From positions 1 through 39,194 of the forward strand of contig JAIOZI010000049.1 in NCBI GenBank assembly GCA_021740785.1: 39,194 bases of DNA. The letters are read 5' to 3'. This DNA is from Melioribacteraceae bacterium (GTDB lineage Bacteria > Bacteroidota > Ignavibacteria > Ignavibacteriales > Melioribacteraceae). Made by a program: the position numbers and the translations under genes. Below are positions 4,121 to 39,194 of this stretch, piece after piece. Under the pieces are notes generated by a model. That model ran no database searches. It saw nothing but the letters and a program-made list of their open reading frames with translations, and had not been told where the DNA came from. Within the stretch, counting starts at the first letter, position 1; each line of letters begins with the position of its first letter.

Positions 4121-4336
4121 CCCAAAAAATTCATTGGAAATAAATTTTTCGCCGTTGGCCGCTCATAAAATGTTTTATTAAAACATTTTATGTTGCGGGA
4201 TTAACCCCGACAATTTGTAAGAAAAATATTTTACTCAAATAACGAATTCCAAAATATCTATATGGCTAAGTATTTGATATTTCTCAACTTACAAATTGTC
4301 GGCCCGAAGGGCAGATTTTCCAATGGAAAATCTGGG
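4121..4336. mobile_element. MITE-like structured element with TTTAA target duplication
   Basis: The element begins CCCA and ends TGGG and is bordered on both sides by TTTAA (4116-4120 and 4337-4341), consistent with a 5-bp target-site duplication. The ends form imperfect terminal inverted repeats sharing CCCA and CATTGGAAA. Inside are a 13-bp stem with 3-nt loop (4164-4192), a short CGGG/CCCG hairpin (4196-4209), a 15-bp inverted repeat CCGACAATTTGTAAG (4207-4221 against 4288-4302), and an 11-bp stem with 1-nt loop close to the right end (about 4312-4334). It has no coding capacity. A second copy with about 98% identity over 178 bp starts at 39018. It sits 11 bp downstream of the PD40 lipoprotein stop. 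Confidence 0.8.
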
Positions 4337-7982: not shown

Positions 7983-9023
7983 GTGATTAAGAGATTTTTG
8001 AAAAATAAAATAGTCCGCCATACATTTTATTGGATGCTGTATGTTGTACTGAACTCTCTTGTTTATTCACAGAACAGTGAAGATTTTATCCGGCAGGCAA
8101 AGGCATTTTTATTTTATATGCCTTTTACTATGACGATTGTTTACGCAACCGTTTACTTTTTGATTCCGCGTTATTTGATGAAGCAGCGAATACTGTTGTT
8201 TATTGCAGGACTATTAATAATAGGATTTACCGGATCATTGGCGGAAAGAACTGCAAATTATTTTATTCTGATCCCATGGTTATTCCCCGAGTATGCTGAT
8301 AGGTACCAAATATTATCAACAAGTCTTATAGGAACAATGATAAGTAATTATCTAATTGTATCCGTCGGCTCAGCAGGAAAATTATTTTACTACTGGTATG
8401 AAAATCAAAAAGCTAAGCAAGAATTAGCTGAAGAAAAATTAAAGACCGAGTTGAAATTTCTGAAAGCACAGGTTCACCCGCATTTTCTGTTTAACACGCT
8501 GAATAATCTTTATGTATTGGTGAAGAAGAAATCCGATAAAGCTCCGGATCTTGTTATGAAGTTATCAAATATTTTACGCTATATGTTGTATGAAATTAAC
8601 ACGGAATTTGTACCGCTGTCAAAAGAAATAAGCATAATAAAAGATTACATCGATATTGAAAAGATACGGCATAGTTCATCACTTTCTATTGATCTGAAAA
8701 TCACAGGTGAAATTAAAGGAAAGATGATTGCCCCGGTTATACTGCTTCCGTTTGTCGAAAATTGTTTTAAGCATGGCATAAGCGGCAGGATTGCAGATAA
8801 ATGGATTAAAATAGAAATTAAGATTGAAGATGATTTTATTGACTGCCGATTTGAAAACAGCAGAGAGATAAATCAACAAGAAGATAAAGACGGTTATCGA
8901 GAAGGGATTGGTCTGAATAATGTTAAGAAAAGATTGAGTATAATTTACAGGAATGATTATTCGATGAAGATTAATGATCAGGATGAAATCTTTTGCGTTC
9001 AATTACAAATTAAATTCAATTGA
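7983..9023 (+). CDS. LytS-type sensor histidine kinase
   Basis: This 346-residue membrane kinase has about four hydrophobic segments in the first 135 residues, a short coiled-coil linker (ENQKAKQELAEEKLKTELK) and a His_kinase domain with the motif QVHPHFLFNTLNN (phospho-acceptor His167). A HATPase_c part follows (PFVENCFKHG, GIGLNNVKKRL). There is no obvious extracellular sensor domain. The start is probably the GTG at 7983; an overlapping ATG at 7981 is out of frame. The partner regulator begins 7 nt after the stop. The 247-bp gap upstream is shared with the divergent FG-GAP operon and probably holds both promoters. Confidence 0.93.
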   Translation: MIKRFLKNKIVRHTFYWMLYVVLNSLVYSQNSEDFIRQAKAFLFYMPFTMTIVYATVYFLIPRYLMKQRILLFIAGLLIIGFTGSLAERTANYFILIPWLFPEYADRYQILSTSLIGTMISNYLIVSVGSAGKLFYYWYENQKAKQELAEEKLKTELKFLKAQVHPHFLFNTLNNLYVLVKKKSDKAPDLVMKLSNILRYMLYEINTEFVPLSKEISIIKDYIDIEKIRHSSSLSIDLKITGEIKGKMIAPVILLPFVENCFKHGISGRIADKWIKIEIKIEDDFIDCRFENSREINQQEDKDGYREGIGLNNVKKRLSIIYRNDYSMKINDQDEIFCVQLQIKFN

Positions 9024-9030
9024 GAGTAAG

Positions 9031-9756
9031 ATGAAAACAAAATGTATGATAGTTGATGATGAACCGCTTGCGATAGAAGCAATCGAAATGCATATAAACG
9101 AACTGAAAGATTTTGAAGTTGCCGCCAAATGTGAAAATGCGATTGAAGCTTTTGAGATATTAAAGAAGAGAAAGATCGATTTGTTATTTCTTGATATCCA
9201 AATGCCAAAGCTGACCGGGATGGAATTTTTAAGAAGTTTGAAAAATCCGCCAAAGGTGATAATCACTACCGCCTACAGTGATTATGCAATCGAAGGTTAC
9301 GAGCTTGATGTAATTGATTATTTGTTGAAGCCGATTCCGTTCGATAGATTTCTGCAGGCGATTGATAAATTTCACCGGGCAAAGGATGAAGGCATTATCG
9401 TTGTTGAAGATGATAAACTTAATAGCACAACAGCTGAGTTTATTTATGTCCGTGCAGATAGAAAAGCAGTTAAAATTAAGTTGAATGAAATCCTCTACCT
9501 GGAAAGTATGCGGGATTATGTTCAGATTAAAACCGAAACTCAGACTGTTACGACGAAAAATCTATTAGGCAAATTTGAAGAAAAACTACCGGGAAATAAA
9601 TTTTTAAGAATTCACAGGTCGTTTATAATTAATAAAGATAAAGTGGATTCTTTTACATCGTTTTCGATTAACATCGGTAAAAAGGAATTGACAATTGCAA
9701 CGAGTTATAAATCGAGAGTTCTGAATGAATTGGGATATGGCGATAAGATGATTTAA
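9031..9756 (+). CDS. LytTR-family response regulator
   Basis: This 241-residue cytoplasmic regulator has an N-terminal receiver domain: acidic pair Asp9/Asp10, phospho-acceptor Asp55 in LLFLDIQMP, a Thr in ITTAYSD, and Lys in YLLKP. The C-terminal LytTR DNA-binding domain follows (YVRADRKAVKIKLNEILYLES ... FLRIHRSFIINKDKV). The ATG at 9031 is preferred because it opens directly with the receiver; a longer in-frame start would overlap the kinase gene. It pairs with the kinase at 7983-9023. The last 24 codons and the following 51 bp are duplicated exactly at 19350-19472. Confidence 0.95.
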   Translation: MKTKCMIVDDEPLAIEAIEMHINELKDFEVAAKCENAIEAFEILKKRKIDLLFLDIQMPKLTGMEFLRSLKNPPKVIITTAYSDYAIEGYELDVIDYLLKPIPFDRFLQAIDKFHRAKDEGIIVVEDDKLNSTTAEFIYVRADRKAVKIKLNEILYLESMRDYVQIKTETQTVTTKNLLGKFEEKLPGNKFLRIHRSFIINKDKVDSFTSFSINIGKKELTIATSYKSRVLNELGYGDKMI

Positions 9757-9762
9757 AATAAA

Positions 9763-9789
9763 GGAAGAGAGCGGTGCAGACTCTCTTCC
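9763..9789. terminator. Stem-loop after the LytTR gene
   Basis: The arms GGAAGAGAG and CTCTCTTCC form a perfect 9-bp stem with a 9-nt loop, 6 bp after the stop codon. No long T run follows (ATCGGGACCTCATTTTGT), so it may be a weak or bidirectional terminator between convergent genes. The same hairpin is carried in the duplicated copy near 19430. Confidence 0.45.
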
Positions 9790-9866
9790 ATCGGGACCTC
9801 ATTTTGTACGAAGCATTCGATCTAATTGTGTAGTTTTATAGCGCTTTTGTCGCTTTAGACCTTTCA

Positions 9867-12629
9867 TTATTTCATCAAAATCATTTTCTTGTTTTGGTAA
9901 AATTCGGAGGTTCTGATTGAATAAATGTATATTCCACTGGCTAATTCTCCGGCATCAAAAATAACTTCATAACGCCCGGGTTTTTTTTCTGAATTTACCA
10001 ACAATCCCACTTCTCTACCAAGAATATCATAAATAGTAATTTTTACAAAACCTGCTTTTGGTATACTATAAATTATTTTGGTGCTTGGATTAAAAGGATT
10101 TGGATAGTTTTGCTCAAGAGAATATTCATCCGGGTGTACATCATCCCCATCAATATTTACTAAAGGAGAAGTTGTTCCGCAAATAGTAATGTTATTATGA
10201 GTCGCAAAGCTTGGTGCTATCACAATTCCACCGGTTAATGAATAAGGATATATTCTTAGTGAAAATGTTTGTCCGTTAGCTATAAACTCATTTAATCCAG
10301 TTGCACTGAATGTTTGCATAGCCGTGTTTAAGTAAGTTAATGGAGATGAATTCAGTAAGGTTTTTGATGACCAACTATCGGTTGAATAATAAACTTGGGA
10401 TTCAAGTATATTGAAATTGATCGATAAAGGATTATCGCCATAGTCAAATGAAACATCGCTAACTGTAAAATTATTTCCGTTTTGAGGTGAAGCATAAAAC
10501 TCAATATAACGTGTTGGATCTTCTATTGAATTAATAGGCCAGCCAGAAGTTCCGACCCAAAGTCTCTGCCCGTTATTGTAATCGTAAACTGTCATAAAAG
10601 GCGAAGAAGATCCCTGGCTAATAATTTCGTTCTGCCCATATACATCACCTAATGTTGATGTCACAGATTCGTCGCCCATTAAATCCCAAGTTACACATGC
10701 CGTTGAAGAATCCTGCATATTACCAAAATTGAGATCAGAGATATTCTCTCCTTCAGAAATAGTCACTGTATAAGTTCCCGGAGAGGAGGGGAAAGTCTGA
10801 ATCCACCCCGATTGATTTATTTCAGAGATAGTATAATTTCCCGGCGCTAAATTGTCGAAACAATAATAGCCGAGTGAATCAGTAAAAACGGGCGAATGTG
10901 TTGCGCAATTTAGTCCGATCTGCCAGTTTGGAAGTCCAGGTTCACCTGAATCCTTGGATCCGTTTCCGTTCAGGTCATTAAATTTAATTCCGCAAATAGA
11001 ACCGGTATTTTGAATTTCTGTTGAAGTTGTTCCGCAAATAGTAATGTTATTATGAGTCGCAAAGCTTGGTGTCCCCGCAATTCCACCGGTTGGTGAATAA
11101 GGATATATTCTTAGTGAAAATGTTTGTCCGTTAGCTATAAACTCATTTAATCCAGTTGCACTGAATGTTTGCATAGCCGTGTTTAAGTAAGTTAATGGAG
11201 ATGAATTCAGTAAGATTTTTGATGACCAACTATCGGTTGAATAATAAACTTGGGATTCAAGTATATTGAAATTGATCGATAAAGGATTATCGCCATAGTC
11301 AAATGAAACATCGCTAACCGTAAAATTATTTCCGTTTTGAGGGGAAACATTAAACTCGATAAAACGTGTTGGATCTTCTATTGAATTAATAGGCCAGCCA
11401 GAAGTTCCGACCCAAAGTCTCTGCCCGATATTGTAATCGAATACAGACATAAAAGGTGAAGTTGATCCCGGACTAATAATTTCGTTCTGCCCTGTTATAT
11501 TACCTATAGTTGAAGTAACAGCTTCACTACTTTGTAAATCCCATGTTATACATGCCTCATCTTCTGAGGTTGGTATGCATTCAATCTCGGCTCTGGCAAT
11601 ACCGCCAAAAGTTCCCGCAAAAATAAACGAATTGCTTGCAGCTAAGCTCGTGACAGTTAATCCGCCGGTGACAGGTAATCCTGCATTATAAGAAATCCAG
11701 GAAGAACCGTTATCTGTAGATAGAATTACCCCACCGCTTGATAATAGACCGGCATAAATATCCGTATCGCAGACTACTTCCAACGTATGAACGACTCCGG
11801 TAGTGAGTTGAGTCCAATTATCCCCGCTATCACTGGAACGGAAAATCCCTCCACCATTTGTTCCGGCAAATAGAAATCCACTTTTGACAGCTAGGGACAT
11901 AATATTGGGATTTGTTAAACCATTATTGACTTGAGTCCAGTTTTGACCATTGTCGCTTGATCGAAACACGCCGCCGCCTGGAGTTGTTCCATAATGATAT
12001 GTACCGGCGAAAATATATGTTCCATCAGAGATGAATGAATACACATAAAGCATTGTTAATCCTGTATTGACCTGGTTCCATGTGGTGCCATTATCGCTGG
12101 AATGATAGATGCCGTTTCCGAAAGAGCCGGCAAAAATATCCGAACCATTAACAAAAAGTGAATAACAACTAATATTCAAAACCGGATTCCACGAATAATT
12201 ACCTGTATTACTTGAGCGGTAAACGCCGCCGTTTGCCGATCCCGCAAAAACGTACTGCGGATTGGATGCAAAGGCTCGTACATCAGTATTACCCGCCATA
12301 CCGGTATTAGGAGTTGTCCAATTCAAACCATTGTCGGTAGTCGACCAAATCATGCTTGCACCGTTAGTCCCTGCTAATAACACCCCATTATTATCAAAAA
12401 CAGTGTTAAATACAAAAGAAGAGGTTAAAGCGGTCCATTGAGCGCTTAGGTTACTGCCGAAGAAAAAAGAAATTAAAAATAAGATCAAAAGAAATTGGCG
12501 CCCAAACCAATTTTTAGTTCTCTGAACTGATTCAGGTCGCTGCCGAATTATGGTGGTCGGCAGTTTAGATATATTTATAGGAGAGTACATGTTTGTGAGA
12601 TTTACAAACACTTTATAATATTTTTTCAT
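9867..12629 (-). CDS. Propeller plus SdrD-B-like T9SS cargo with internal duplication
   Basis: The 920-residue product has an unusually long N-region of about 40 residues before the hydrophobic signal core (FLLILFLISFFFGSNLSA). The start at 12629 is the longest; an ATG 13 codons in is possible. About residues 66-350 are sortilin/BNR-like propeller repeats (GxxxFAGTxGGGIFRSSDxGxxW). Then come a roughly 180-residue domain, a single SdrD-B/CNA-B-like domain (CGIKFNDLNGNGSKDSGEPG), and a second near-identical copy of the 180-residue domain (TWDL ... QRLWVGTSGWPINSIEDPTR). It ends in a T9SS type-A domain (NYPNPFNPSTKI ... MILMK). It is exported and probably surface-bound; function unknown. Confidence 0.88.
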   Translation of the reverse strand: MKKYYKVFVNLTNMYSPINISKLPTTIIRQRPESVQRTKNWFGRQFLLILFLISFFFGSNLSAQWTALTSSFVFNTVFDNNGVLLAGTNGASMIWSTTDNGLNWTTPNTGMAGNTDVRAFASNPQYVFAGSANGGVYRSSNTGNYSWNPVLNISCYSLFVNGSDIFAGSFGNGIYHSSDNGTTWNQVNTGLTMLYVYSFISDGTYIFAGTYHYGTTPGGGVFRSSDNGQNWTQVNNGLTNPNIMSLAVKSGFLFAGTNGGGIFRSSDSGDNWTQLTTGVVHTLEVVCDTDIYAGLLSSGGVILSTDNGSSWISYNAGLPVTGGLTVTSLAASNSFIFAGTFGGIARAEIECIPTSEDEACITWDLQSSEAVTSTIGNITGQNEIISPGSTSPFMSVFDYNIGQRLWVGTSGWPINSIEDPTRFIEFNVSPQNGNNFTVSDVSFDYGDNPLSINFNILESQVYYSTDSWSSKILLNSSPLTYLNTAMQTFSATGLNEFIANGQTFSLRIYPYSPTGGIAGTPSFATHNNITICGTTSTEIQNTGSICGIKFNDLNGNGSKDSGEPGLPNWQIGLNCATHSPVFTDSLGYYCFDNLAPGNYTISEINQSGWIQTFPSSPGTYTVTISEGENISDLNFGNMQDSSTACVTWDLMGDESVTSTLGDVYGQNEIISQGSSSPFMTVYDYNNGQRLWVGTSGWPINSIEDPTRYIEFYASPQNGNNFTVSDVSFDYGDNPLSINFNILESQVYYSTDSWSSKTLLNSSPLTYLNTAMQTFSATGLNEFIANGQTFSLRIYPYSLTGGIVIAPSFATHNNITICGTTSPLVNIDGDDVHPDEYSLEQNYPNPFNPSTKIIYSIPKAGFVKITIYDILGREVGLLVNSEKKPGRYEVIFDAGELASGIYIYSIRTSEFYQNKKMILMK
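10168..10580. repeat. Intragenic direct repeat, copy nearer the 3' end
   Basis: This block matches 11023-11435 with a constant offset of 855 bp (285 codons), no gaps and roughly 96-97% identity by eye. Identity falls off sharply beyond both ends although the domain copies continue. Confidence 0.85.
11023..11435. repeat. Intragenic direct repeat, copy nearer the 5' end
   Basis: Partner of 10168-10580. Differences cluster in a few spots (for example after CAAAGCTTGGTG and near TTTTGAGG). Both copies lie in the same frame of the 9867-12629 gene. Confidence 0.85.
12522..12563. repeat. Two small hairpins in a signal-peptide N-region
   Basis: Hairpins at 12522-12535 (CTGAA, 4-nt loop, TTCAG) and 12540-12563 (CTGCCGA, 10-nt loop, TCGGCAG) lie in the codons for residues about 23-36 of the 9867-12629 product, just before its hydrophobic signal core. 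They may be inserted repeats that lengthened the N-region. Confidence 0.45.
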
Positions 12630-12654
12630 TTTATACTCGATTCAAGTTTTTTAA

Positions 12655-12738
12655 TTAATTTACCATCTTTAGCCTAATTGAAGATTTTTCCTTCAGTGAT
12701 TTTAGAGATGGTTTTAGTTTTGCGATTTTAATAAGCAT
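12655..12738 (-). pseudogene. Truncated relative of the small protein at 14649-14879
   Basis: A 27-codon open frame starting at the ATG at 12738 encodes a peptide containing KIAKLKPSLKSLKEKSSI. It aligns with KIEKLKSSLKSLKNKTSI near the C-terminus of the 14649-14879 product. Over the 17 core codons the differences are mostly synonymous third- or first-position changes (ATA/ATC, TTA/CTA, CTG/CTA, TCG/TCA, CTA/CTG, TCG/TCA, ATA/ATT), as expected for a once-selected protein. The N-terminal half is missing: the stop of the cargo gene at 12755 lies just upstream. It is likely a decayed gene, though a short peptide cannot be excluded. Confidence 0.6.
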
Positions 12739-12754
12739 CCTTTTTGAAGCTTGC

Positions 12755-14608
12755 TTATTTCATCAAAATCATTTTACGTGTACTTGCAAAATTTGTTTTT
12801 CCATCAATGCCGACTGCATTTATTTTATATAGATAAACCCCGGTTGCCAAATTATTTGCATTGAACGTAATCTCATGATTCCCCGCTGAACGGATATCAT
12901 TTACAAGTTCCATAACTAACTGACCTAATAGATTAGAGACCGTAATAGTAACGGTGCTTGCTGATGCGATCGAGAATCTTATTGTTGTCGCCGGATTGAA
13001 TGGGTTAGGATAATTTTGGTATAGAGTAAACTCTCTTGGTATTTGATTAACATAAGCGGAGTTAGCGTCTAATGTAACCTGGGCGATTGTGTTGTAATAT
13101 TCATATTTACCGTCAAGATCAATTTGTTTTAATCTATAGCTTACTTCCACGTTTGCGGGATTTTCAACATTCGCATCCGGTAAATCTGAATCTATGAATG
13201 AATATTCTTTGGGTGAGTTTGTTGTTCCGTGCCCTTGCACAAATCCAACCACTTCCCAATCTTGATACTCGATTCTTGATACTTGCCTCTGTATTTCGAA
13301 TCCGTAATTGTTTACTTCAGTTGCTGTTTCCCAATTTAATTCTACTATATTTTCATTTAACTCGGCAGTAAATGTTGTTAATTCAACAGGCAATGCACCA
13401 TCCGGAGATGCTTTTGATGCGTAAATGTCAATACTAACGTTACGACTATCTTGCCAAGTAATAATCCCACCACTAGCATCACCTGTAATTACGGGAAGCG
13501 TAGCTTTTCCTCCTACGGTTGAAATTGCAATTCCATCTGCTGTCCATTGAGCTGCGCCACTTGAATTTATTCTCTGCGCATAAATGTCATAAAAAGTACT
13601 ATTACGTGCATCATTCCAGGTAATAATCGCCCCACCACTACCATCACTTGAAATATCCGGGGAATATTGATCGCTTGTTAGTGTGCAAACAGGAAGTCCA
13701 TCTGCTGTCCATTGAGGTGCACCGTTTCTATTTATTCTCTGAGCGTAAATATCATTATTACCAGCACGGCCATCAAACCAGGTAATGATTGCACCGCCAC
13801 TACCATCAATCGTTATTGTGGGATTATCTTGCCTGCTTATATTTGTGCAAACATTAACTCCACCTGCCGCTGCCGTTGTCCATAGAGTTGCACCGCTTGA
13901 ATTTATTCTTTGAGCATAAATATCCTGATTACCGGTACGATTATCGTACCAAGTAATAATGGCTCCGCTGCTGCCATCGCTTGTTATTGTAGGTGCTTGT
14001 TGGTGACTTGCTTGTGTGCAAACAGGAAGTCCATTTGCTGTCCATTGAACTGCTCCACTTGCATCAATGCTCTGTGCGTAAATATCATTATTACCATTTC
14101 GGAAAGTATACCATGTAATAATAGCTCCGCCACTGCCATCACCCGTTATTGAGGGAGCATTTTCTCCGTTTACATTTATACTGATAGCCACTCCATCTGC
14201 TGTCCATTGGACTGCGCCACTTGCATTAATTCTCTGCGCATAAATGGAGGGATTACCGTTACGGCTGTCTTGCCAGGTAATGATTGCCCCGCCGCTGCCA
14301 TCACTTGTTATTGAGGCAAAGTATTGAGAGCTTGCTTGTGTGCAGACTGCAAGTCCATCTGCCGACCATTGCAGTGCAGCGCTTGAATTTATTTTCTGCG
14401 CATAAATGTTAAAGTTACCATCGCGGTTGTCATCCCAGGTAATAATAGCTCCACCGCTACCATCGTCTGTTATAGCGGGATATTCTTGGGTATTAGCTTG
14501 TGTGCAAATAGGATTATTAACTGTTGGATCGACTGACCATTGTGAATATATATTATTACTTAATAATCCAATCAGTAATATTATTGTTAAGGTTAATTTC
14601 TTTTTCAT
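12755..14608 (-). CDS. T9SS cargo with eight 'IYAQRINSSG' repeats
   Basis: The 617-residue product has a signal peptide (MKKKLTLTIILLIGLLSNNIYSQ-like). About residues 24-405 contain eight repeats of roughly 47 residues (DGSGGAIITWxDxRNGNxDIYAQRINxSGAxQWTADG), which probably form a beta-propeller. A fibronectin-like stretch follows (VELNWETATEVNNYGFEIQR ... YRLKQIDLDGKYEYY), then a T9SS type-A domain (NYPNPFNPATTI ... RKMILMK). Within 'FEIQR...WEVVGFVQGHG' the segment QVSRIEYQD is encoded by a 10-bp direct repeat pair at 13260-13283. The ATG at 14608 has a weak AGAGG site. The gene is flanked on both sides by copies of a small protein family. Confidence 0.92.
   Translation of the reverse strand: MKKKLTLTIILLIGLLSNNIYSQWSVDPTVNNPICTQANTQEYPAITDDGSGGAIITWDDNRDGNFNIYAQKINSSAALQWSADGLAVCTQASSQYFASITSDGSGGAIITWQDSRNGNPSIYAQRINASGAVQWTADGVAISINVNGENAPSITGDGSGGAIITWYTFRNGNNDIYAQSIDASGAVQWTANGLPVCTQASHQQAPTITSDGSSGAIITWYDNRTGNQDIYAQRINSSGATLWTTAAAGGVNVCTNISRQDNPTITIDGSGGAIITWFDGRAGNNDIYAQRINRNGAPQWTADGLPVCTLTSDQYSPDISSDGSGGAIITWNDARNSTFYDIYAQRINSSGAAQWTADGIAISTVGGKATLPVITGDASGGIITWQDSRNVSIDIYASKASPDGALPVELTTFTAELNENIVELNWETATEVNNYGFEIQRQVSRIEYQDWEVVGFVQGHGTTNSPKEYSFIDSDLPDANVENPANVEVSYRLKQIDLDGKYEYYNTIAQVTLDANSAYVNQIPREFTLYQNYPNPFNPATTIRFSIASASTVTITVSNLLGQLVMELVNDIRSAGNHEITFNANNLATGVYLYKINAVGIDGKTNFASTRKMILMK
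13260..13283. repeat. In-frame 10-bp direct repeat pair in a conserved domain
   Basis: TCTTGATACT occurs twice (13260-13269 and 13274-13283) separated by CGAT. On the coding strand it is AGTATCAAGA-ATCG-AGTATCAAGA. It encodes the linker QVSRIEYQD within a conserved fibronectin-like motif of the T9SS cargo gene. Confidence 0.8.
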
Positions 14609-14648
14609 TTATTGCCTCTCTTTGTATTTGTTTGCCTTGCGTACTTAA

Positions 14649-14879
14649 TCATATAATCTCACCATTCCTGATAGTTATCGAAGTTTTATTCTTTAGCGAT
14701 TTCAGAGATGATTTTAATTTTTCTATTTTCTCTTTTGATACATTTGGGTCACTATCCAAATCTGCAATTGCTTCTTCAATTGAATTGTATTCCCTAACAT
14801 TTTCATTTTCTTTACCCTTTTTTATTATTACCAAAGGGGCTGAGTTTGAAAGCTTATTCATGAATAGTCCCAATAACAT
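14649..14879 (-). CDS. Small acidic/basic protein of unknown function
   Basis: The 76-residue product (ATG at 14879; a TTG five codons upstream is possible) has no signal peptide. It has a short beta-like N-terminus (PLVIIKKGKE), an acidic helix (YNSIEEAIADLDSDPNVS), a Lys-rich heptad-like helix (KEKIEKLKSSLKSLKNK) and a terminal strand (TSITIRNGEII). It is probably cytoplasmic. A diverged C-terminal fragment at 12655-12738 differs mainly by synonymous changes, which supports coding. It lies 40 bp upstream of the cargo gene at 12755-14608 and may share its transcript. Family not recognised. Confidence 0.6.
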   Translation of the reverse strand: MLLGLFMNKLSNSAPLVIIKKGKENENVREYNSIEEAIADLDSDPNVSKEKIEKLKSSLKSLKNKTSITIRNGEII

Positions 14880-15233
14880 TTTTGTGATTTTCAATTTGTT
14901 CCACCAGAATTTTGTACGAAGCTACAAACGGAATTCGGATGATACAACAGCTAACCAGTATACGGTGTCTTTTATTAAACGAACGGTATGAAATAAGAAT
15001 TAAACGGTAAGGAGAATGGAGAGTTATACTTACGTGTTGATAGTTTTTAAGTGTGTTGTATGACTAATTAATTGCCCCGACCCTGCCTACCGGACAGGTT
15101 TTACGTCGGGAATTTAAATGGGGCTAAAGCCCTTTTTCTTTTGTTGTTTTCATTCTCCGTTGGTTAAAACCAACGGCAATTTTTCAATATAAAGTTATGC
15201 AACACACATGGAAGAGGACGGCAATAATATGAC
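14880..15233. other. Intergenic region with structured repeat
   Basis: This 354-bp gap has no credible gene. Its right part is a hairpin-rich element with inverted-repeat ends (15051-15207). The left part, 14880-15050, presumably holds the promoter of the small protein, but no clear boxes stand out. Confidence 0.6.
15051..15207. mobile_element. Structured MITE-like element with terminal inverted repeats
   Basis: The ends GTGTGTTGTATGAC (15051-15064) and GTTATGCAACACAC (15194-15207) are inverted repeats with two mismatches, and weaker pairing continues inward. Inside are three hairpins in a row: CCCGAC...GTCGGG enclosing CCTG...CAGG (15076-15110), GGGCT-AA-AGCCC followed by a T-rich run (15120-15150), and CCGTTGGTT-AA-AACCAACGG (15157-15176). 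No coding capacity. The 13-mer TTATGCAACACAC of its right end recurs at 15234-15246, over the stop codon of the kinase gene. Confidence 0.55.
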
Positions 15234-18200
15234 TTATGCAACACACTCTTTATACAATGGCGGCGGCAGAGAAATAATGATTTCAGTTCCTTGCGAATTG
15301 CTATTGCCATCATTCAGATCTTCAAACATTATCGGTTGTGGGATATGCATTTTTGTGCTTAGTAATCGTAAACGCTCTTCTACTATTTGTATTCCTTTTG
15401 ATATATGATCATCTTTTTCAAATAATCCTTCGGACTTATGTTTCATTGCTTCCTTAATTCCTACACCATTATCTGTAATCTTAATAATCAACGACCTGCA
15501 AACGATCGAATCAATTTCTACATTTTCAAATGAAAAAGAAACCGTAAGTAATCCTTTTATCTCGGAACCGAGTATCCCGTGCCAGAGAGAGTTTTCTACA
15601 AAGGGCTGAATTATCATATTTGGAATCAAAAGAGTTGAAGAATCAATACCTGATCTGTTTATAATTTCATACGAAAATCTATCCTGGAATCTCAATTTTT
15701 CTAGATTTAAATAAAGCTTTAGTCGAGTTATTTCTTCGGATAAAAGAATAAATCCGCTTCCGGCTGTATCAAGATGCTTCCTGATAAGTTTAGCCATCAT
15801 CGCTATGTAATCATTTGCTTCTTCATTTCGTTTAGAATTTATTAGATACTGTACCGAGTTAAGCGCGTTAAATGTAAAATGCGGATTCATCATTGCAGAT
15901 AGCGCCTGATGTTTTAACTCGTTAATTCTTTCGGAAAGTTCCAGCTCTCCAATTATCTTTTTGTTTTTGATCTGCATTCGCCAAGAAACAATTAAAAGAA
16001 CAACAAAAATAATTAGCAAGAATATTCCGAGATAAAATCCAAGAGTTTCTGTAAATCGCGGCTGTATACTGAAAGTTATTATTTGTGGTTTACTCCAATC
16101 TGAGTTTTGAGATTTAGCCATTATTTGGAGAGTATAAGTTCCACTGCCTAGAGAAACAAAATTTAGCAAACTAAAATCGGTATTTATCCATTCACCATCG
16201 AATTTATATCTATATTCTACAGTTCCCGGTGAAGAAAAATTGAGTGCGGTAAAATCAATTTTAACATCATGCTGTTCGGGTGAGAAAATTAAATTGTCAT
16301 ATCCGGTGTAAACTGAATCACCTGCCTCTACATCAGCAATAATTACGTTTGGGGGTTTCGGATTGAAATTATCAAATTGATTAATATCTAGTAAAGATAT
16401 TCCATTGCTTGTTCCAACATAGAGCAAATTCTCACTTTCATCTAAATAAAGAGAAAGCACCTCACTTGAGGGTAATCCTGTTTTTCCGCTGAGATGTTTT
16501 ATCGATTTGCCGTCGATTAAAAATAATCCCTTCATATTAGCAAGCCATAACCTGCCCATTTTATCAAAAGTCATGTAGTTAGAAGCTGATAAATCATATC
16601 CTAATAAATTAGTATGACTTGTTACCAAATTACTTTCGAGGTTGTAACGTGCAATTCCGTTAACACCCGCGAACCAAACGTTATTTTGATTATCCTGAGT
16701 AACGGAGTTAATTCTTGAATTCAATACAGGATCATCCGGGAAAAATGATTTCACAGCTTTAAACTCATTTGACGAATATGATAAACCAGATAGTTTGCAC
16801 AAACCATTTGCAGTCGCAATCCAAACATTTTTTTGTGAATCTTCAAAAATGTCGTTTATGCGATTTAGATTCGGGTTACCTTCAAAGACATAAAATAAAT
16901 GTGTTCCCTCATCAGTATAGTTCAGTCTTCGATTAACGATTATATAATCTGATGTGGTTCCAAAAAGATAAAGCCCGTCTTTTGTTTTAGAAAAAGACTG
17001 CCGGTCAAATATATAAAAATTGATTCCTTCGGAATTAACTTTTGTTATCTTTGCATTGGCAATTGAAACCCCAACATAGAAAGTATTATCAAAGTTCTTG
17101 ATTCCATAGATATATTCAGTTAATGGTTTACCGATATTCCTTTTCAGTCGACGAAATTTTCCATCCTCTAAAATGTTAATCCCGTTAAAAGTACCTATAA
17201 TTATTTTACCCGAATTTTCTTTAACGATTGAATAGACAGTATTATTGCTTAATCCATCATTTTCGTTATATGATTTTAGATAAAGATTATTAAGACAATA
17301 GACACCCTTACCGAACGTACTAATCCAGATATTTCCTTCGTTATCTTCAAAATACTTATTCACAAGAGAATTTTGTAATCCCATTTTACTTCCCATATCG
17401 ATAATTTGATCGGAACCGCTTGGAATAAAATAGAAACCCTTGTTCATAATAGAGAACCAGATATTTTTATTACTATCGAAATAGATATGACTAACGCCAA
17501 GATTTCCATACGCTTTAACATCATAACGCTTGATTACTTTATCATCTTTAATATGATAAATTATCGACTTCGCTGCGGCAAGGTAACTGCCTTCATCACT
17601 TTCAACAAATGAGTAAATATCGGAATCCGGTAACCCGCTGATATTCAATTTGGTAAAATTTCCGTTTTCAAAATCATATAATCCACCTGAAGTTGAAGCA
17701 ATAATTTTACCATTTGACAGTTGCGTTAAGTTATATATTGCATTTATATCAGTTTGAAACAGACTAATCTTAGAATTTGCAAATCCGGCTATTTTGCTTT
17801 CTTTAATTGCATTAATGCCCGTGTAATTTCCGTAAGTATAAATTGTTTGCTCATTAGTTTTAACTCTAGGAATAAATAAATATGAGATGCCAATGCGTTG
17901 CCCATTAATTTCAGTAAAATAATTTTGAATCTTTTCGTCTTTTAGAACATTAATTCCTTTTTCATAATTACCAAAATATATTTCCCCGTCTTTTCCTTCT
18001 GCTAGTGCAATAATTGAATTTGAATTTAGACCTTCAGTAATTCGGAAAGTAGTAAACTGATTTCCGTCAAATTTACTAACTCCATTTGCCGTTGCAAACC
18101 AAATAAATCCATTTTGGGCTTGAAGAATATCATATACTGTTGAGGATGCAAGTCCATCAGATGAGGTGTAGTGGTAGTAGGAAGGAGTCTGTGAGTAAAT

Positions 18201-18329
18201 AGAATTAATTAGTGTGAAAAAGAGGAGTATCACTAAGGTAAATACTTGTCTGTTAAGGTTACACGGAGAACCACAGAGATTATTTTTTCCCGTGTTTTGC
18301 GAAACACTATTAGGAATCGATTTGATCAT
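15234..18329 (-). CDS. Two-component-propeller LytS-type histidine kinase
   Basis: This 1031-residue transmembrane sensor has a long N-region before its signal or anchor segment (VFTLVILLFFTLINSIYSQ). About residues 48-690 are two-component-regulator propeller repeats (SSDGLASSTVYDILQAQNGFIWFAT type), followed by a Y_Y_Y domain (about 700-760), a transmembrane helix (FYLGIFLLIIFVVLLIVSW), a His_kinase domain with NPHFTFNALNSV (His817) and a HATPase part (PFVENSLWHG, GVGI, GIQIVEERLRLL). The large propeller is periplasmic, as in Bacteroidetes sensors of polysaccharides. The ATG overlaps the regulator's TGA (TGATG), so translation is coupled. The final codons and stop lie in a 13-mer shared with the adjacent repeat element. 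Ligand unknown. Confidence 0.95.
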   Translation of the reverse strand: MIKSIPNSVSQNTGKNNLCGSPCNLNRQVFTLVILLFFTLINSIYSQTPSYYHYTSSDGLASSTVYDILQAQNGFIWFATANGVSKFDGNQFTTFRITEGLNSNSIIALAEGKDGEIYFGNYEKGINVLKDEKIQNYFTEINGQRIGISYLFIPRVKTNEQTIYTYGNYTGINAIKESKIAGFANSKISLFQTDINAIYNLTQLSNGKIIASTSGGLYDFENGNFTKLNISGLPDSDIYSFVESDEGSYLAAAKSIIYHIKDDKVIKRYDVKAYGNLGVSHIYFDSNKNIWFSIMNKGFYFIPSGSDQIIDMGSKMGLQNSLVNKYFEDNEGNIWISTFGKGVYCLNNLYLKSYNENDGLSNNTVYSIVKENSGKIIIGTFNGINILEDGKFRRLKRNIGKPLTEYIYGIKNFDNTFYVGVSIANAKITKVNSEGINFYIFDRQSFSKTKDGLYLFGTTSDYIIVNRRLNYTDEGTHLFYVFEGNPNLNRINDIFEDSQKNVWIATANGLCKLSGLSYSSNEFKAVKSFFPDDPVLNSRINSVTQDNQNNVWFAGVNGIARYNLESNLVTSHTNLLGYDLSASNYMTFDKMGRLWLANMKGLFLIDGKSIKHLSGKTGLPSSEVLSLYLDESENLLYVGTSNGISLLDINQFDNFNPKPPNVIIADVEAGDSVYTGYDNLIFSPEQHDVKIDFTALNFSSPGTVEYRYKFDGEWINTDFSLLNFVSLGSGTYTLQIMAKSQNSDWSKPQIITFSIQPRFTETLGFYLGIFLLIIFVVLLIVSWRMQIKNKKIIGELELSERINELKHQALSAMMNPHFTFNALNSVQYLINSKRNEEANDYIAMMAKLIRKHLDTAGSGFILLSEEITRLKLYLNLEKLRFQDRFSYEIINRSGIDSSTLLIPNMIIQPFVENSLWHGILGSEIKGLLTVSFSFENVEIDSIVCRSLIIKITDNGVGIKEAMKHKSEGLFEKDDHISKGIQIVEERLRLLSTKMHIPQPIMFEDLNDGNSNSQGTEIIISLPPPLYKECVA
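18254..18297. repeat. Probable dispersed repeat in the kinase N-region
   Basis: The stretch contains ACACGGAGAACCACAGAGA, which resembles 'CACGGAG...CCACAGAG' repeats that I recall as dispersed in several environmental bacterial genomes. It encodes NNLCGSPCNLNR between the start codon and the hydrophobic core of the kinase at 15234-18329. Recognition is from memory. Confidence 0.4.
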
Positions 18330-19054
18330 CAGATAGTATTTAGAAAAGATTTAATTTTATTCAAAAATTCCGGCGCTTTTCTGCGTGAGATTTCTACTTT
18401 ACTTCCATCAATCATCGTTGCGTAACCACCGCTTAATTTTGAGTAATCTTTAATATGCTTCAAGTTGATTAAGTGAGATTTATGAGTTCTAAAAAAAAAC
18501 TTATCCGAAAGTGTGTTCTCAAAGTCTTTTAAAGTGCGGGAAACAATTTTATTCTTTCCATCTATTAGAATTACTTTAGTATAACATCCTTCAGCTTCAA
18601 GCCGGATAATGTTATCAGTCAGCAAGACTTCAAAACCATGCGAAGCCGGCAGCATCAATTTATCGGATTCGGATGATGACTCAACTTCCACCTTTTTATT
18701 TATTAGGACTAATAGTTTTTTAATAGTTTGTTTGAGTTCCTTTATATTAATTGGCTTGAGCAGATAATCCACAGCACCGGCTTTGACAGCTTTAATCCCG
18801 AATTCTTCATGAGCGCTGACAAATACTACCATAAAATTTCGTTCATCAAATTCATTAAGAAAATCAAATCCGTCTAGCACCGGCATACTGATATCAAGAA
18901 AGACCACATCGGGTTTGTGAATTTCAACAAGTTTCCTTGCTGTGAGAACTGAATCAGCCAAGCCTAAAATTTCTATTTCCGGGCAATAGCTTTCGATAAT
19001 TGCTCTGAGATTTTCTCTACCGTGAAGTTCATCATCAACAATTATTGCCTTCAT
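18329..19054 (-). CDS. LytTR-family response regulator
   Basis: This 241-residue regulator has a receiver domain with Asp7/Asp8, phospho-acceptor Asp54 (VVFLDISMP), VSAHEE and YLLKPI motifs, a Ser/Glu-rich linker (VEVESSSESD) and a C-terminal LytTR DNA-binding domain (IIRLEAEGCYTKV ... FFRTHKSHLINLKHI). It is the first gene of a two-gene unit with the propeller kinase, joined by a 1-nt stop/start overlap. Upstream is a 10-bp palindrome GGAAATTTCC (19103-19112) that could be an operator, but nothing proves this. Confidence 0.95.
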   Translation of the reverse strand: MKAIIVDDELHGRENLRAIIESYCPEIEILGLADSVLTARKLVEIHKPDVVFLDISMPVLDGFDFLNEFDERNFMVVFVSAHEEFGIKAVKAGAVDYLLKPINIKELKQTIKKLLVLINKKVEVESSSESDKLMLPASHGFEVLLTDNIIRLEAEGCYTKVILIDGKNKIVSRTLKDFENTLSDKFFFRTHKSHLINLKHIKDYSKLSGGYATMIDGSKVEISRRKAPEFLNKIKSFLNTI

Positions 19055-19349
19055 CTTTTTATGCCTTTTTTATCCATTACTGCCTTCTAGTTTTGGTATT
19101 CGGGAAATTTCCGGTGAAAAAAGGTCTGTAAAACTAAACCAACTGAAATTGAAGAGAATTCTAATTAGAGCGGAGAGTCAAAAGTATTTCTAATTAAGAA
19201 AAAAACAACAAGATATCTTGTTTTGAAAATGTACGAGTGAAGAATCACAAGTCAATAAAAAATATACCATGTAAAAATCAAATATCAAATAAAATTAAAC
19301 GAGATCAATCAGTAAGTTTTTCATCCTTCATTGATTTGTAGTAAAAAAA

Positions 19350-19472
19350 GAATTGACAATTGCAACGAGTTATAAATCGAGAGTTCTGAATGAATTGGGA
19401 TATGGCGATAAGATGATTTAAAATAAAGGAAGAGAGCGGTGCAGACTCTCTTCCATCGGGACCTCATTTTGT
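19350..19472 (+). pseudogene. Exact 123-bp copy of the 3' end of the 9031-9756 gene
   Basis: The sequence is identical to 9685-9807: the last 24 codons of the plus-strand LytTR regulator including its stop, the 9+9 hairpin and a further 18 bp. Just upstream the two loci still share GTAAAAA-type sequence, then diverge. It cannot encode a functional regulator. The orientation is plus, opposite to the neighbouring LytTR gene. Confidence 0.9.
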
Positions 19473-19594
19473 CAGAGGTCTATTGCCAAAGGGGAGCGGC
19501 AAACTTTTATTTTCTGAAGATCATTTCATTAAATCAATTATTTTCCTTAGTCTTTTTTACATTTTCAAGATTTCTACAATATCTTTATTAAGCT

Positions 19595-19737: not shown

Positions 19738-22146
19738 TTACTTCATTAATATCATTTTTCTTACAGAGTTGAATTCACCTGCCTGGAGTTGATAGAAATA
19801 AATTCCCGAGTTAAGGTTAGATGCATCAAATGTATAATTATAAGTTCCGGCATCTAGTGTTTTGTTCACGAGAGTTGTTATTTCTTCTCCAATCAAATTG
19901 TAAACAGTTAGCTTCACATACGATTGCGTGGGAATATCAAACCCAATTGTAGTTGTTGGGTTAAACGGATTCGGGTAATTGTTTTTCAGTGTGAATTGAT
20001 CCGGAATTATCTCTTTAATTTCTTCTTCAACATAAGTTGCGGATGGAGTTAGATTAAAATTCATCTCATACTCTTGACCCTCATCAAGATTAGTATGCAG
20101 TGAATTGTTTTCGCTGTTGAATTTCACTTTTGATACAATAATATCAAAGTCACCACTGCCTAGTCCTTGAATAGAATAGTTCCCTTGTGAGTTGCTCATT
20201 GTGTAGTCAACAACATTATTAAATTGGTCAAGGACTGAAACCATAACCCCCGACAACGGTGACCCTGTGTTTGAAGTAATTATACCCGACAATACTCCGG
20301 CGCCGTTGCCCCCATTCACCTCCGCTAGATATGCATCAATTGAACTGACATCCCCCGTCACTAAAACTGTGGCAGCGTCCTCCCACATTATTGCATTGTC
20401 ATAAAATTCAGGAGCATATCCTTCGGCGTAGAACAGAACGTAATAATTGCCTTCGGGAAGATTACCAACAGAATAATTCCCCTCGGAACCGGATAAACCG
20501 AATCCAATCATTCCATTATCAGCGCCGAAAGCTATTATGAATGCGCCGGTAAGCGGCGTTCCCTCATCATCATAAATAGAACCGCTTATTGAGTATTCGT
20601 CGGGATTACCTAATTGTGTAAGTGAAAAATTAATATCTGTTATTTCAGTCTCGCTTGAATCGATGGTAATGACATCAGCCAGAAATATTTCCGGCTGATT
20701 ATCATACCATTCTGATCTATAACCGTTTTTATGTGCGCCTGCGATAAATGAGTTTGAATAACCTGTATAATTGATCTCAGCTGAATAATTACCCTCTGAA
20801 TCGGTCTCGGCATAAAACGGGTCGGCAAAAATTCCGGGTTCATAGTATGTATGCATTATTTCGATTAAGGCATTTTCCAAAGGATTGCCCAGATCATCGG
20901 TTACATTTCCGCTGATTGTAATATTATTAACAACCGGCGCCGGAATACCGAAATCAATACCGGTTGTTGTATTGTTTTCCGTGATTGTTACCGGCGTGGC
21001 TTCTTCTAAAAATTGTACGTCATCGTAATATTCTTGATATGAAAAGAATAATGAATCGGTTGAATAATATTCTACCATCACAAAGTAATCTCCAGCCGGA
21101 AGATCGGCTGAATAATCACCGTTATCATCAGTTGAAACTGTGTAGTTAATTGGTAAAGGCGGCATTGTAAAATTTGGTATAAAATGTACCATCGCATAAT
21201 CCACCGGTATGTCTATTTCGTCGAAATAAACCTGCCCCTCGATGGTTCCGATCCCGGGCGGCTGGTTCCCGGCTAAATTAATATCGAATGTGGTTGTACT
21301 ATCTGGTAAAACTTGTACCGGTAAAATACTTCTGTAATTATAACCCAATGCATCAACAGAGATAAAATACTCACCAGAAGGAAGTTCGTCGAATGTATAA
21401 ATCCCATCGGAGTTTGTTTGAGCCAAATAAGAGATAGTTAAGAATGCATGATGTGCCCAAACTTCTGCATTAGGTACCGGTTCCGGGTCCGAGCCTTCTT
21501 CCGAGATATAAACCAAGCCGGTCAATACCCCGCTGCCGCTGCCTATGCTTTGTGAAATATAAACATCAAAATTATCAATTTCGGAGTTCTCTTCTATAGT
21601 AATGGTATCGGAAAATCCAATGTAATTTGGATGAAAAACATGAAAGAGATAGAACCCCGGCGTAATACTTTCAAAAATATAATTACCGTCGTCACCTGAA
21701 TTGGTTACATAAAAGTTGCCGCTTCCGGGGGGTGATTGAATCATAATTTCAGCCCCGGCAAGTGGTTCTAATGATTCGGAATCATAAATTGTCCCGGCTA
21801 AATGATTGTCGAATAAATCGTTAATAGGCGTAAGCTGAAATCCGAATATTCTTCCGTCATTTACATAAACCGGTCCGAATGTGCCTGTGTGGTATTGAGG
21901 GTGATTGATTTGAACTAAGTAATCTGTGTTTAGTGCAGGTAAATCTACCTCGAACATGCCGTCGAAATTTGTTGTTGCAGAGTAATCGCCGAAATAATTT
22001 GAATCAACGGCAGAAAAAACAACAACAGCTCCCTCGATGGGATTACTGCTACTGCTGCTTGTAACTTGACCGGATACAATCTCCGCATTAATGGAAGTGA
22101 TTCCCATTAGTAAAATTGTGAGTACCGGTAAAATTTTTCTAAGCAT
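19738..22146 (-). CDS. T9SS cargo of carboxypeptidase-regulatory-like repeats
   Basis: The 802-residue product begins with a signal peptide (MLRKILPVLTILLMGITSINA-like) and contains about seven CarboxypepD_reg-like/Cna-B-like beta-sandwich repeats, recognisable by 'GxVxxxxxxPxxGAxVxxxxxx ... TxxxGxYxxxxLxxGxYxxxxxxxGY' (for example SGQVTSSSSSNPIEGAVV, SGSIYDDEGTPLTGAFI, SGIITSNTGSPLSGVMV). It ends in a T9SS type-A domain (NNYPNPFNPTTTI ... VRKMILMK). It is probably an extended surface fibre or stalk; no catalytic domain is seen. An AAGAGAAAG purine run precedes the ATG. Confidence 0.92.
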   Translation of the reverse strand: MLRKILPVLTILLMGITSINAEIVSGQVTSSSSSNPIEGAVVVFSAVDSNYFGDYSATTNFDGMFEVDLPALNTDYLVQINHPQYHTGTFGPVYVNDGRIFGFQLTPINDLFDNHLAGTIYDSESLEPLAGAEIMIQSPPGSGNFYVTNSGDDGNYIFESITPGFYLFHVFHPNYIGFSDTITIEENSEIDNFDVYISQSIGSGSGVLTGLVYISEEGSDPEPVPNAEVWAHHAFLTISYLAQTNSDGIYTFDELPSGEYFISVDALGYNYRSILPVQVLPDSTTTFDINLAGNQPPGIGTIEGQVYFDEIDIPVDYAMVHFIPNFTMPPLPINYTVSTDDNGDYSADLPAGDYFVMVEYYSTDSLFFSYQEYYDDVQFLEEATPVTITENNTTTGIDFGIPAPVVNNITISGNVTDDLGNPLENALIEIMHTYYEPGIFADPFYAETDSEGNYSAEINYTGYSNSFIAGAHKNGYRSEWYDNQPEIFLADVITIDSSETEITDINFSLTQLGNPDEYSISGSIYDDEGTPLTGAFIIAFGADNGMIGFGLSGSEGNYSVGNLPEGNYYVLFYAEGYAPEFYDNAIMWEDAATVLVTGDVSSIDAYLAEVNGGNGAGVLSGIITSNTGSPLSGVMVSVLDQFNNVVDYTMSNSQGNYSIQGLGSGDFDIIVSKVKFNSENNSLHTNLDEGQEYEMNFNLTPSATYVEEEIKEIIPDQFTLKNNYPNPFNPTTTIGFDIPTQSYVKLTVYNLIGEEITTLVNKTLDAGTYNYTFDASNLNSGIYFYQLQAGEFNSVRKMILMK

Positions 22147-39017: not shown

Positions 39018-39194
39018 CCCAAAAAATTCATTGGAAATAAATTTTTTGCCGTTGGCGCTCATAAAATGTTTTATTAAAACATTTTATGTTGCGGGATTAA
39101 CCCCGACAATTTGTAAGAAAAATATTTTACTCAAATAACGAATTTCAAAATTTCTATATGGCTAAGTATTTGATATTTCTCAACTTACAAATTG
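39018..39194. mobile_element. Second copy of the MITE-like element, cut by the window edge
   Basis: It matches 4121-4298 in the same orientation with three substitutions and one single-base deletion (GGCCGCTC against GGCGCTC) over about 178 bp. It contains the same 13-bp-stem hairpin and reaches into the second arm of the 15-bp internal inverted repeat. The right end is outside the window. The left flank (TCATACTAAT) differs from the first copy. Confidence 0.9.

Follow-up and report, generated by a model that had tools for sequence, protein, structure and literature searches.

How does the 3' end of one response regulator gene come to lie, unchanged, a second time nearly ten kilobases away, in front of another regulator-kinase operon? 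The question is raised by a 39,194-nt stretch of DNA from a Melioribacteraceae bacterium, here called the window, which is the entire contig C2 of a 115-contig assembly of a 4.85 Mb genome. Positions 9685-9807 and 19350-19472 of the window are identical over 123 bp on the same strand and form a direct repeat. The original prediction had pointed to this identity, to a spacing of about 9.7 kb and to a copy placed upstream of a second LytTR/kinase operon in the opposite orientation. All three were borne out, by an exact match, by a measured distance of 9,665 bp from copy 1 to copy 2, and by a copy 2 on the plus strand ~0.3 kb upstream of a LytTR2/HK2 operon on the minus strand. The explanation that we favour, and consider likely, is that a ~9.5-kb module, gained by horizontal transfer, entered the chromosome at the 3' end of the first regulator gene, LytTR1, and duplicated 123 bp of the target (Table 1). 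The suggestion of a segmental duplication or rearrangement junction came close: the pair would mark both ends of an inserted module, and the repeat itself would be duplicated target DNA.

An exact repeat of 123 bp is far beyond chance, and it extends to 129 bp if one mismatch is allowed (9679-9807/19344-19472, 99.2% identity). It holds the last 23 sense codons and the stop codon of LytTR1 (9031-9756), followed by 51 bp of post-stop sequence, with a perfect 9-bp hairpin in each copy (9763-9789 and 19428-19454); stop, hairpin and flank had been described correctly, but 24 codons plus the stop had been counted. The perfect identity of the copies fits the recent event that had been proposed; for ongoing conversion, the other cause named, no evidence was seen, though no test was aimed at it. 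A search of the whole assembled genome found two copies only, the next best match being 19 bp, which excludes a dispersed repeat with more than two genomic copies, the alternative raised at the outset. No match to the repeat was found at E 0.001 in 57 other genomes, none of them of the same genus, its hairpin was not found in the viral contigs searched, Rfam gave no match, and a tRNA search of the window found none. No residual homology, as a sign of a larger decayed duplication, flanks the copies beyond the repeat. Recent paralogy of LytTR1 and LytTR2 was rejected, the two being only 26% identical.

The flanks indicate which side is native. Three successive RNA hairpins lie 3' of copy 2, the second straddling the repeat end (z -3.69, with 0 of 200 shuffles as good), whereas 3' of copy 1 the first hairpin alone is left (z -0.11, matched by 94 of 200 shuffles). 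Only copy 2 being followed by the rest of the array, the original continuation of LytTR1 would seem to lie from 19473 onward.

The segment between the copies carries a response regulator (LytTR2), a sensor kinase (HK2), an 81-aa open reading frame (ORF) and two secreted proteins of the type IX secretion system (T9SS) type, g7 and g8. Strong matches to HK2 were present in 12 of the 57 other genomes, and 11 loci (L206-L211 and L232-L236; G051 was left out) were read. LytTR2 lies ~0.2 kb or less from HK2 in ten of them; in G047 the distance is ~0.8 kb and two small ORFs intervene. Seven of the 11 loci have the 81-aa ORF downstream of HK2 (~4 kb away in G034); as to the other four, L206 ends early, L211 is partly masked (its leader is present), and in L210 and L234 none was seen. 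A g8 relative (about 66%, two ORFs) belongs to the LytTR2-HK2 cluster of G047 and a g7 relative (44-56%) to that of G044, and more distant relatives of both stand together on another contig of G018. Nine LytTR1/HK1 loci (L154-L158 and L032-L035), from seven other genomes plus a paralogue in this genome, contained no LytTR2 or HK2 at E 1e-15; four of these loci span only ~3.3-3.7 kb and one 7 kb. Because LytTR2-HK2 recurs in relatives and the LytTR1/HK1 loci lack it, the segment is, judged by gene neighbourhood, a single module whose core is elsewhere unlinked to LytTR1.

The kinase also carries a signal of transfer. Over 3,772 bp the HK2-LytTR2 DNA is 85.8% identical to that of G018, which belongs to a different genus, against 74.6% for the rpoB region, and identity at four-fold sites is 0.730 for HK2 (n = 311) and 0.467 for rpoB (n = 152). 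From these comparisons HK2 looks horizontally transferred. The Pfam scan of all ten insert ORFs of at least 60 aa returned no transposase, integrase or other recombinase family and no restriction-modification (RM) genes, and the short insert ORFs matched no family above the Pfam cut-off. Inverted repeats of at least 30 bp are absent from the window. As a separate observation, g7 contains an internal near-exact duplication (10168-10467/11023-11322, 97%, 855-bp period, exact runs of at most 121 bp).

Comparable structures were sought in 17 contigs of the same genome, 1.53 of 4.85 Mb (31%). A first census of low-copy same-contig repeats (at least 60 bp, at least 85% identity, more than 1.5 kb apart) gave 8 direct and 2 inverted pairs, one of the latter being the two ends of one contig and the other 37.7 kb apart. 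It started from 20 direct and 19 inverted pairs, of which 12 and 17, respectively, were set aside because their sequence had more than two further matches; the high-copy ones inspected belong to a dispersed element. A second census (50 bp, 88%, 1.5-20 kb) yielded 7 direct matches at 6 places and no inverted ones. Three clear cases stand besides the window. In C34, a 184-bp repeat (96.7%, 63478-63661/77954-78137), made up of the opening 14 bp of a tRNA-Arg gene and the region upstream of it, brackets 14.3 kb (L241) with a type I RM system and PRTase, Mrr and HipA-like defence genes. In C56, 121 bp (93.4%) from the 3' end of a 659-aa gene bracket two T9SS-tail proteins. In C54, the repeat is about 120 bp long, falls into two halves of 97% and 92% identity, comes from the 5' end of queE and brackets two proteins whose T9SS-tail matches, 26.3 and 24.6 bits, fall just under the Pfam cut-off of 27; a 225-bp dispersed element has since split one copy, and the repeat lies close to the contig end.

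The C56 case can be compared with relatives in 29 loci, out of the 49 other genomes that have the isocitrate/isopropylmalate dehydrogenase gene. The target gene directly precedes the dehydrogenase gene in 15 of the 29, with a gap of 65-208 bp; the remainder comprise one partial match at 1,164 bp and 13 loci with no match. Gene order thus strongly indicates that C56 is an insertion duplicating the end of its target gene, and this supports the insertion reading for the window. The repeats of the window, C34, C56 and C54 have no sequence in common except matches of at most 14 bp, which are at chance level. No recombinase family was recognised among the C34, C54 and C56 proteins scanned, a scan that covered ORFs from ~90-110 aa upwards and in which some insert proteins had no family at all, so that absence at these three places is not proved. 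A weaker candidate in C8 (160 bp, 88%) was not counted, ~70 bp of its repeat being simple sequence, and neither were pairs in C13, C14, C17 and C106, with lower identity or possibly representing gene paralogues.

Two further kinds of sequence were encountered in this survey. A 288-bp stretch of noncoding DNA (88.5%) is shared in inverted sense between C56 (17376-17663) and C8 (69282-69569), upstream of T9SS cargo in both. The dispersed intergenic element, ~180-250 bp, is present in the window at 4121-4298 and 39018-39194 (the contig end); 40 places were scored of 211 candidates, with 93-98% identity to the window-end copy, and several contigs end in it. Because its C54 copy splits one repeat copy with a short GTTAAA-like duplication and leaves the other copy uninterrupted, the element looks like a miniature inverted-repeat transposable element (MITE).

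What has been shown for the window is a direct repeat present in two copies only, a regulator-kinase pair that other genera carry without LytTR1, and a transfer signal in HK2; on this footing a mechanism can be proposed. The module, with LytTR2, HK2, the small ORF and the two T9SS-type secreted proteins, would have arrived horizontally, and the two ends of the incoming DNA would have been joined to target positions 123 bp apart. The stretch between the joining points would then have been copied to both sides, in the manner of a transposon target duplication but about ten times longer. One copy would remain in the intact LytTR1, and the displaced native 3' end would now lie at the far side, by its old neighbour. 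The insertion appears to have proceeded without a recombinase of its own, the joining perhaps aided by short end matches (GTAAAAA at the right, ATTTTGT at the left). At the right junction GTAAAAA occurs on both sides, and first-order Markov simulations, run once the 14-bp match at the left junction was known, reached it in 1 of 500; these are possible microhomologies, not proof.

Among known systems, the window is most likely an insertion with long target duplication bearing unusual cargo. Nobusato and co-workers reportedly described in 2000 insertions with long target duplication of RM genes in Helicobacter pylori. In the passages available, such insertions are reported from H. pylori, often with RM genes (PMC1643837, PMC3031569, PMC4978471), the duplications are called long and variable, of the order of 100 bp (review, PMC3874152), and no enzyme is given for the process. 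The window resembles them in that its inserted genes are bracketed by a 123-bp direct repeat of the target and that the insert has no known transposase or integrase and no long terminal inverted repeats, and C34 in the same genome even carries a type I RM system. It differs in cargo, a two-component/LytTR module with T9SS-type proteins instead of RM genes, RM cargo being frequent in that literature but not required, and the host phylum probably differs from that of H. pylori, judging by the T9SS tails. A more distant parallel is offered by transposed genes of Arabidopsis, which in the passages available lie between direct repeats whose sequence, that of the host, is often seen at the empty orthologous site (PMC2869330); there, too, non-transposon genes are bracketed by host repeats, but in a eukaryote and with genes moved within one genome. 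The literature search found nothing joining long target duplication with type IX secretion or Ignavibacteria, and none of the papers containing the term 'long target duplication' had a title on this group, which is thin evidence for novelty.

Several observations weigh against the insertion reading. The base composition of the insert is unremarkable (36.1% GC). LytTR2 alone shows only weak signs of transfer (identity of 0.526 at four-fold sites, n = 76) and in G012 protein identity is 81% for LytTR2 but only 52% for HK2; on these grounds the module looks mosaic. No exact bracketing repeats of at least 20 bp surround the module in the 11 relatives' loci, of which four contain masked 6-7 kb stretches and some end early. 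The comparison of synteny in relatives that had been called for recovered a module core unlinked to LytTR1 but no uninterrupted (empty) allele of the window's own site among the 57 genomes. In G034, a g8-related T9SS-type protein (43%, C-terminal part) is convergent to LytTR1, so T9SS-type neighbours of LytTR1 can arise without the repeat. The hairpin argument could be partly chance. Finally, a control of 95 loci from other Bacteroidota and relatives (1.69 Mb, mostly 20 kb each), under the limits of the first census, also showed 3 direct and 0 inverted pairs; therefore no enrichment or general direct bias is claimed, and these counts do not set this genome apart. T9SS-type genes are common here. 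As to the control pairs themselves, that in L084 is coding at both places and that in L232 lies in T9SS-tail coding sequence. The third, in L038 (Marinilabiliales, 4248-4332/6850-6934), is an 85-bp direct repeat (95%) bracketing two membrane-protein-like genes, and possibly a further insertion of the same kind.

The strongest competitor, though an unlikely one, is a site-specific integrative element acting at gene ends, its integrase lost or supplied in trans, with the 123 bp as attL and attR. Genomic islands classically have foreign DNA bracketed by a direct repeat of a gene 3' end, the gene end being duplicated on both sides, and C56 likewise uses a gene 3' end. Island attachment cores are, however, usually shorter than this repeat. 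The scan of insert proteins recognised no integrase family; the four target sequences are different but for the chance-level short matches, and two of them are gene 5' ends (queE at C54 and tRNA-Arg at C34).

Still less probable is that the module never moved, and that the repeat stems from a larger tandem duplication followed by deletion of most of one copy or from break repair that pasted in a templated patch of 123 bp. Either could yield direct repeats without a recombinase, and the region has other young duplications (10168-11322). Neither accounts well for the HK2 transfer signal, for LytTR1 and the module being unlinked elsewhere, for the lack of homology beyond the repeat or for the uninterrupted gene order in relatives of the C56 analogue. 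A pasted patch would moreover be expected inverted as often as direct; at 1.5-20 kb the survey gave 6 direct places and no inverted one, a small number.

A misassembly or strain chimera is very improbable: the assembly is fragmented and its contigs break inside repeats, and the longest exact direct repeats within contigs are little below the assembler's word length (125 bp, then the window's 123 bp, none reaching 139 bp in 1.53 Mb), but the words used were longer than the repeat and the analogous repeats in C34, C56 and C54 have diverged by ~3-9%, which such an artefact would not be expected to do. The word length comes from 60 contig ends of the 30 contigs read, where four pairs have a terminal stretch of exactly 139 bp in common; the other matches were one shared end of 48 bp and five overlaps of 26-101 bp, four of these overlaps lying in the dispersed element. 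Shared ends of exactly 139 bp are characteristic of a word-based assembler whose words were about 139-141 long. Being shorter than the word, each 123-bp copy is read through with its own flanks, and the repeat is probably real and not the assembly artefact once suspected. The sample may still combine strains that carry the insert with strains that lack it. A further word-length mark is seen in identical 137-bp contig-end stretches (C78 2-138, C78 58375-58511 and C13 1-137).

Table 1. Features of the target operon, the putative insert and its flanks (window coordinates)
Feature	Position	Strand	Basis or remark
HK1, His_kinase partner of LytTR1 (target operon)	7983..9023	+	Pfam His_kinase 4.1e-26
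LytTR1 response regulator, target gene, intact	9031..9756	+	Pfam Response_reg + LytTR
Repeat copy 1: last 23 codons and stop of LytTR1, hairpin, 3' flank	9685..9807	+	exact match
Left junction, 14 bp shared with module promoter region 14909-14922	9801..9814	+	blastn
Putative inserted segment, 9,542 bp, LytTR2 module	9808..19349	.	between copies; LytTR2-HK2 elsewhere without LytTR1
g7, 920-aa T9SS-type secreted protein	9867..12629	-	Por_Secre_tail; relative beside LytTR2-HK2 in G044
g8, 617-aa T9SS-type secreted repeat protein	12755..14608	-	Por_Secre_tail; relative near LytTR2-HK2 in G047
Small conserved ORF, 81 aa	14649..14894	-	3' of HK2 in 7/11 relatives' loci; no Pfam family over cut-off
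Probable LytTR operator, three ACCG-type repeats, 21-bp period	14961..15008	-	upstream of small ORF; alignment and scan
HK2, Reg_prop propeller/Y_Y_Y/His_kinase sensor	15234..18329	-	Pfam; 85% aa identity in G018
LytTR2 response regulator	18329..19054	-	Pfam; close to HK2 in 11/11 relatives' loci
Repeat copy 2: probable displaced native LytTR1 3' end	19350..19472	+	exact match
Hairpins 2 and 3, array continuing past copy 2, not formed after copy 1	19459..19502	+	fold z
Probable native pre-insertion downstream neighbour of LytTR1	19738..22146	-	adjoins copy 2; carboxypeptidase-regulatory repeats + Por_Secre_tail

The module also appears to bring its own control. ACCG-type repeats with a 21-bp period and some substitutions, followed by a conserved stretch, occur in 10 of 11 aligned leaders (not in the second of G047). 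The strict form of the repeat pair is present in the window's leader and in those of L207 (twice), L209, L211, L235, L236 and L237; in the whole genome the operator pattern occurs at 7 sites, its reversed control at 1. The consensus general to LytTR proteins and the -33/-7 promoter of Bacteroidota form the background for this reading, and the LytTR protein AgrA binds direct repeats, according to the passages available (PMC4227749). HK2 likely senses a signal, upon which LytTR2, bound to the three phased repeats, would activate the small ORF and the secreted proteins. The 81-aa ORF together with its ACCG leader is conserved in the window (14649-15011) and in L207, L208, L209, L232, L233, L235 and L236.

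Whether the lineage possesses a recurrent mobility, recombinase-free or acting in trans, that drops gene modules at gene ends and duplicates ~120 bp can be put forward only tentatively, and we regard it as rather doubtful; the modules would include T9SS-type secreted proteins with their regulators. The repeats measure ~116-129 bp in three of the four clear cases (123-129, 121 and about 120 bp; the fourth is 184 bp), and these near-equal lengths may reflect a fixed geometry of the machinery.

The entry of genes without a transposase or integrase into bacterial chromosomes is poorly understood, and here the signature of insertion with long target duplication surrounds cargo other than defence genes. 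T9SS-type proteins are carried by the structure in the window and by at least one other. One genome offers several examples of differing divergence, one of them (C56) with relatives that lack the insert, and the perfect, young repeat of the window makes excision and reinsertion directly testable.

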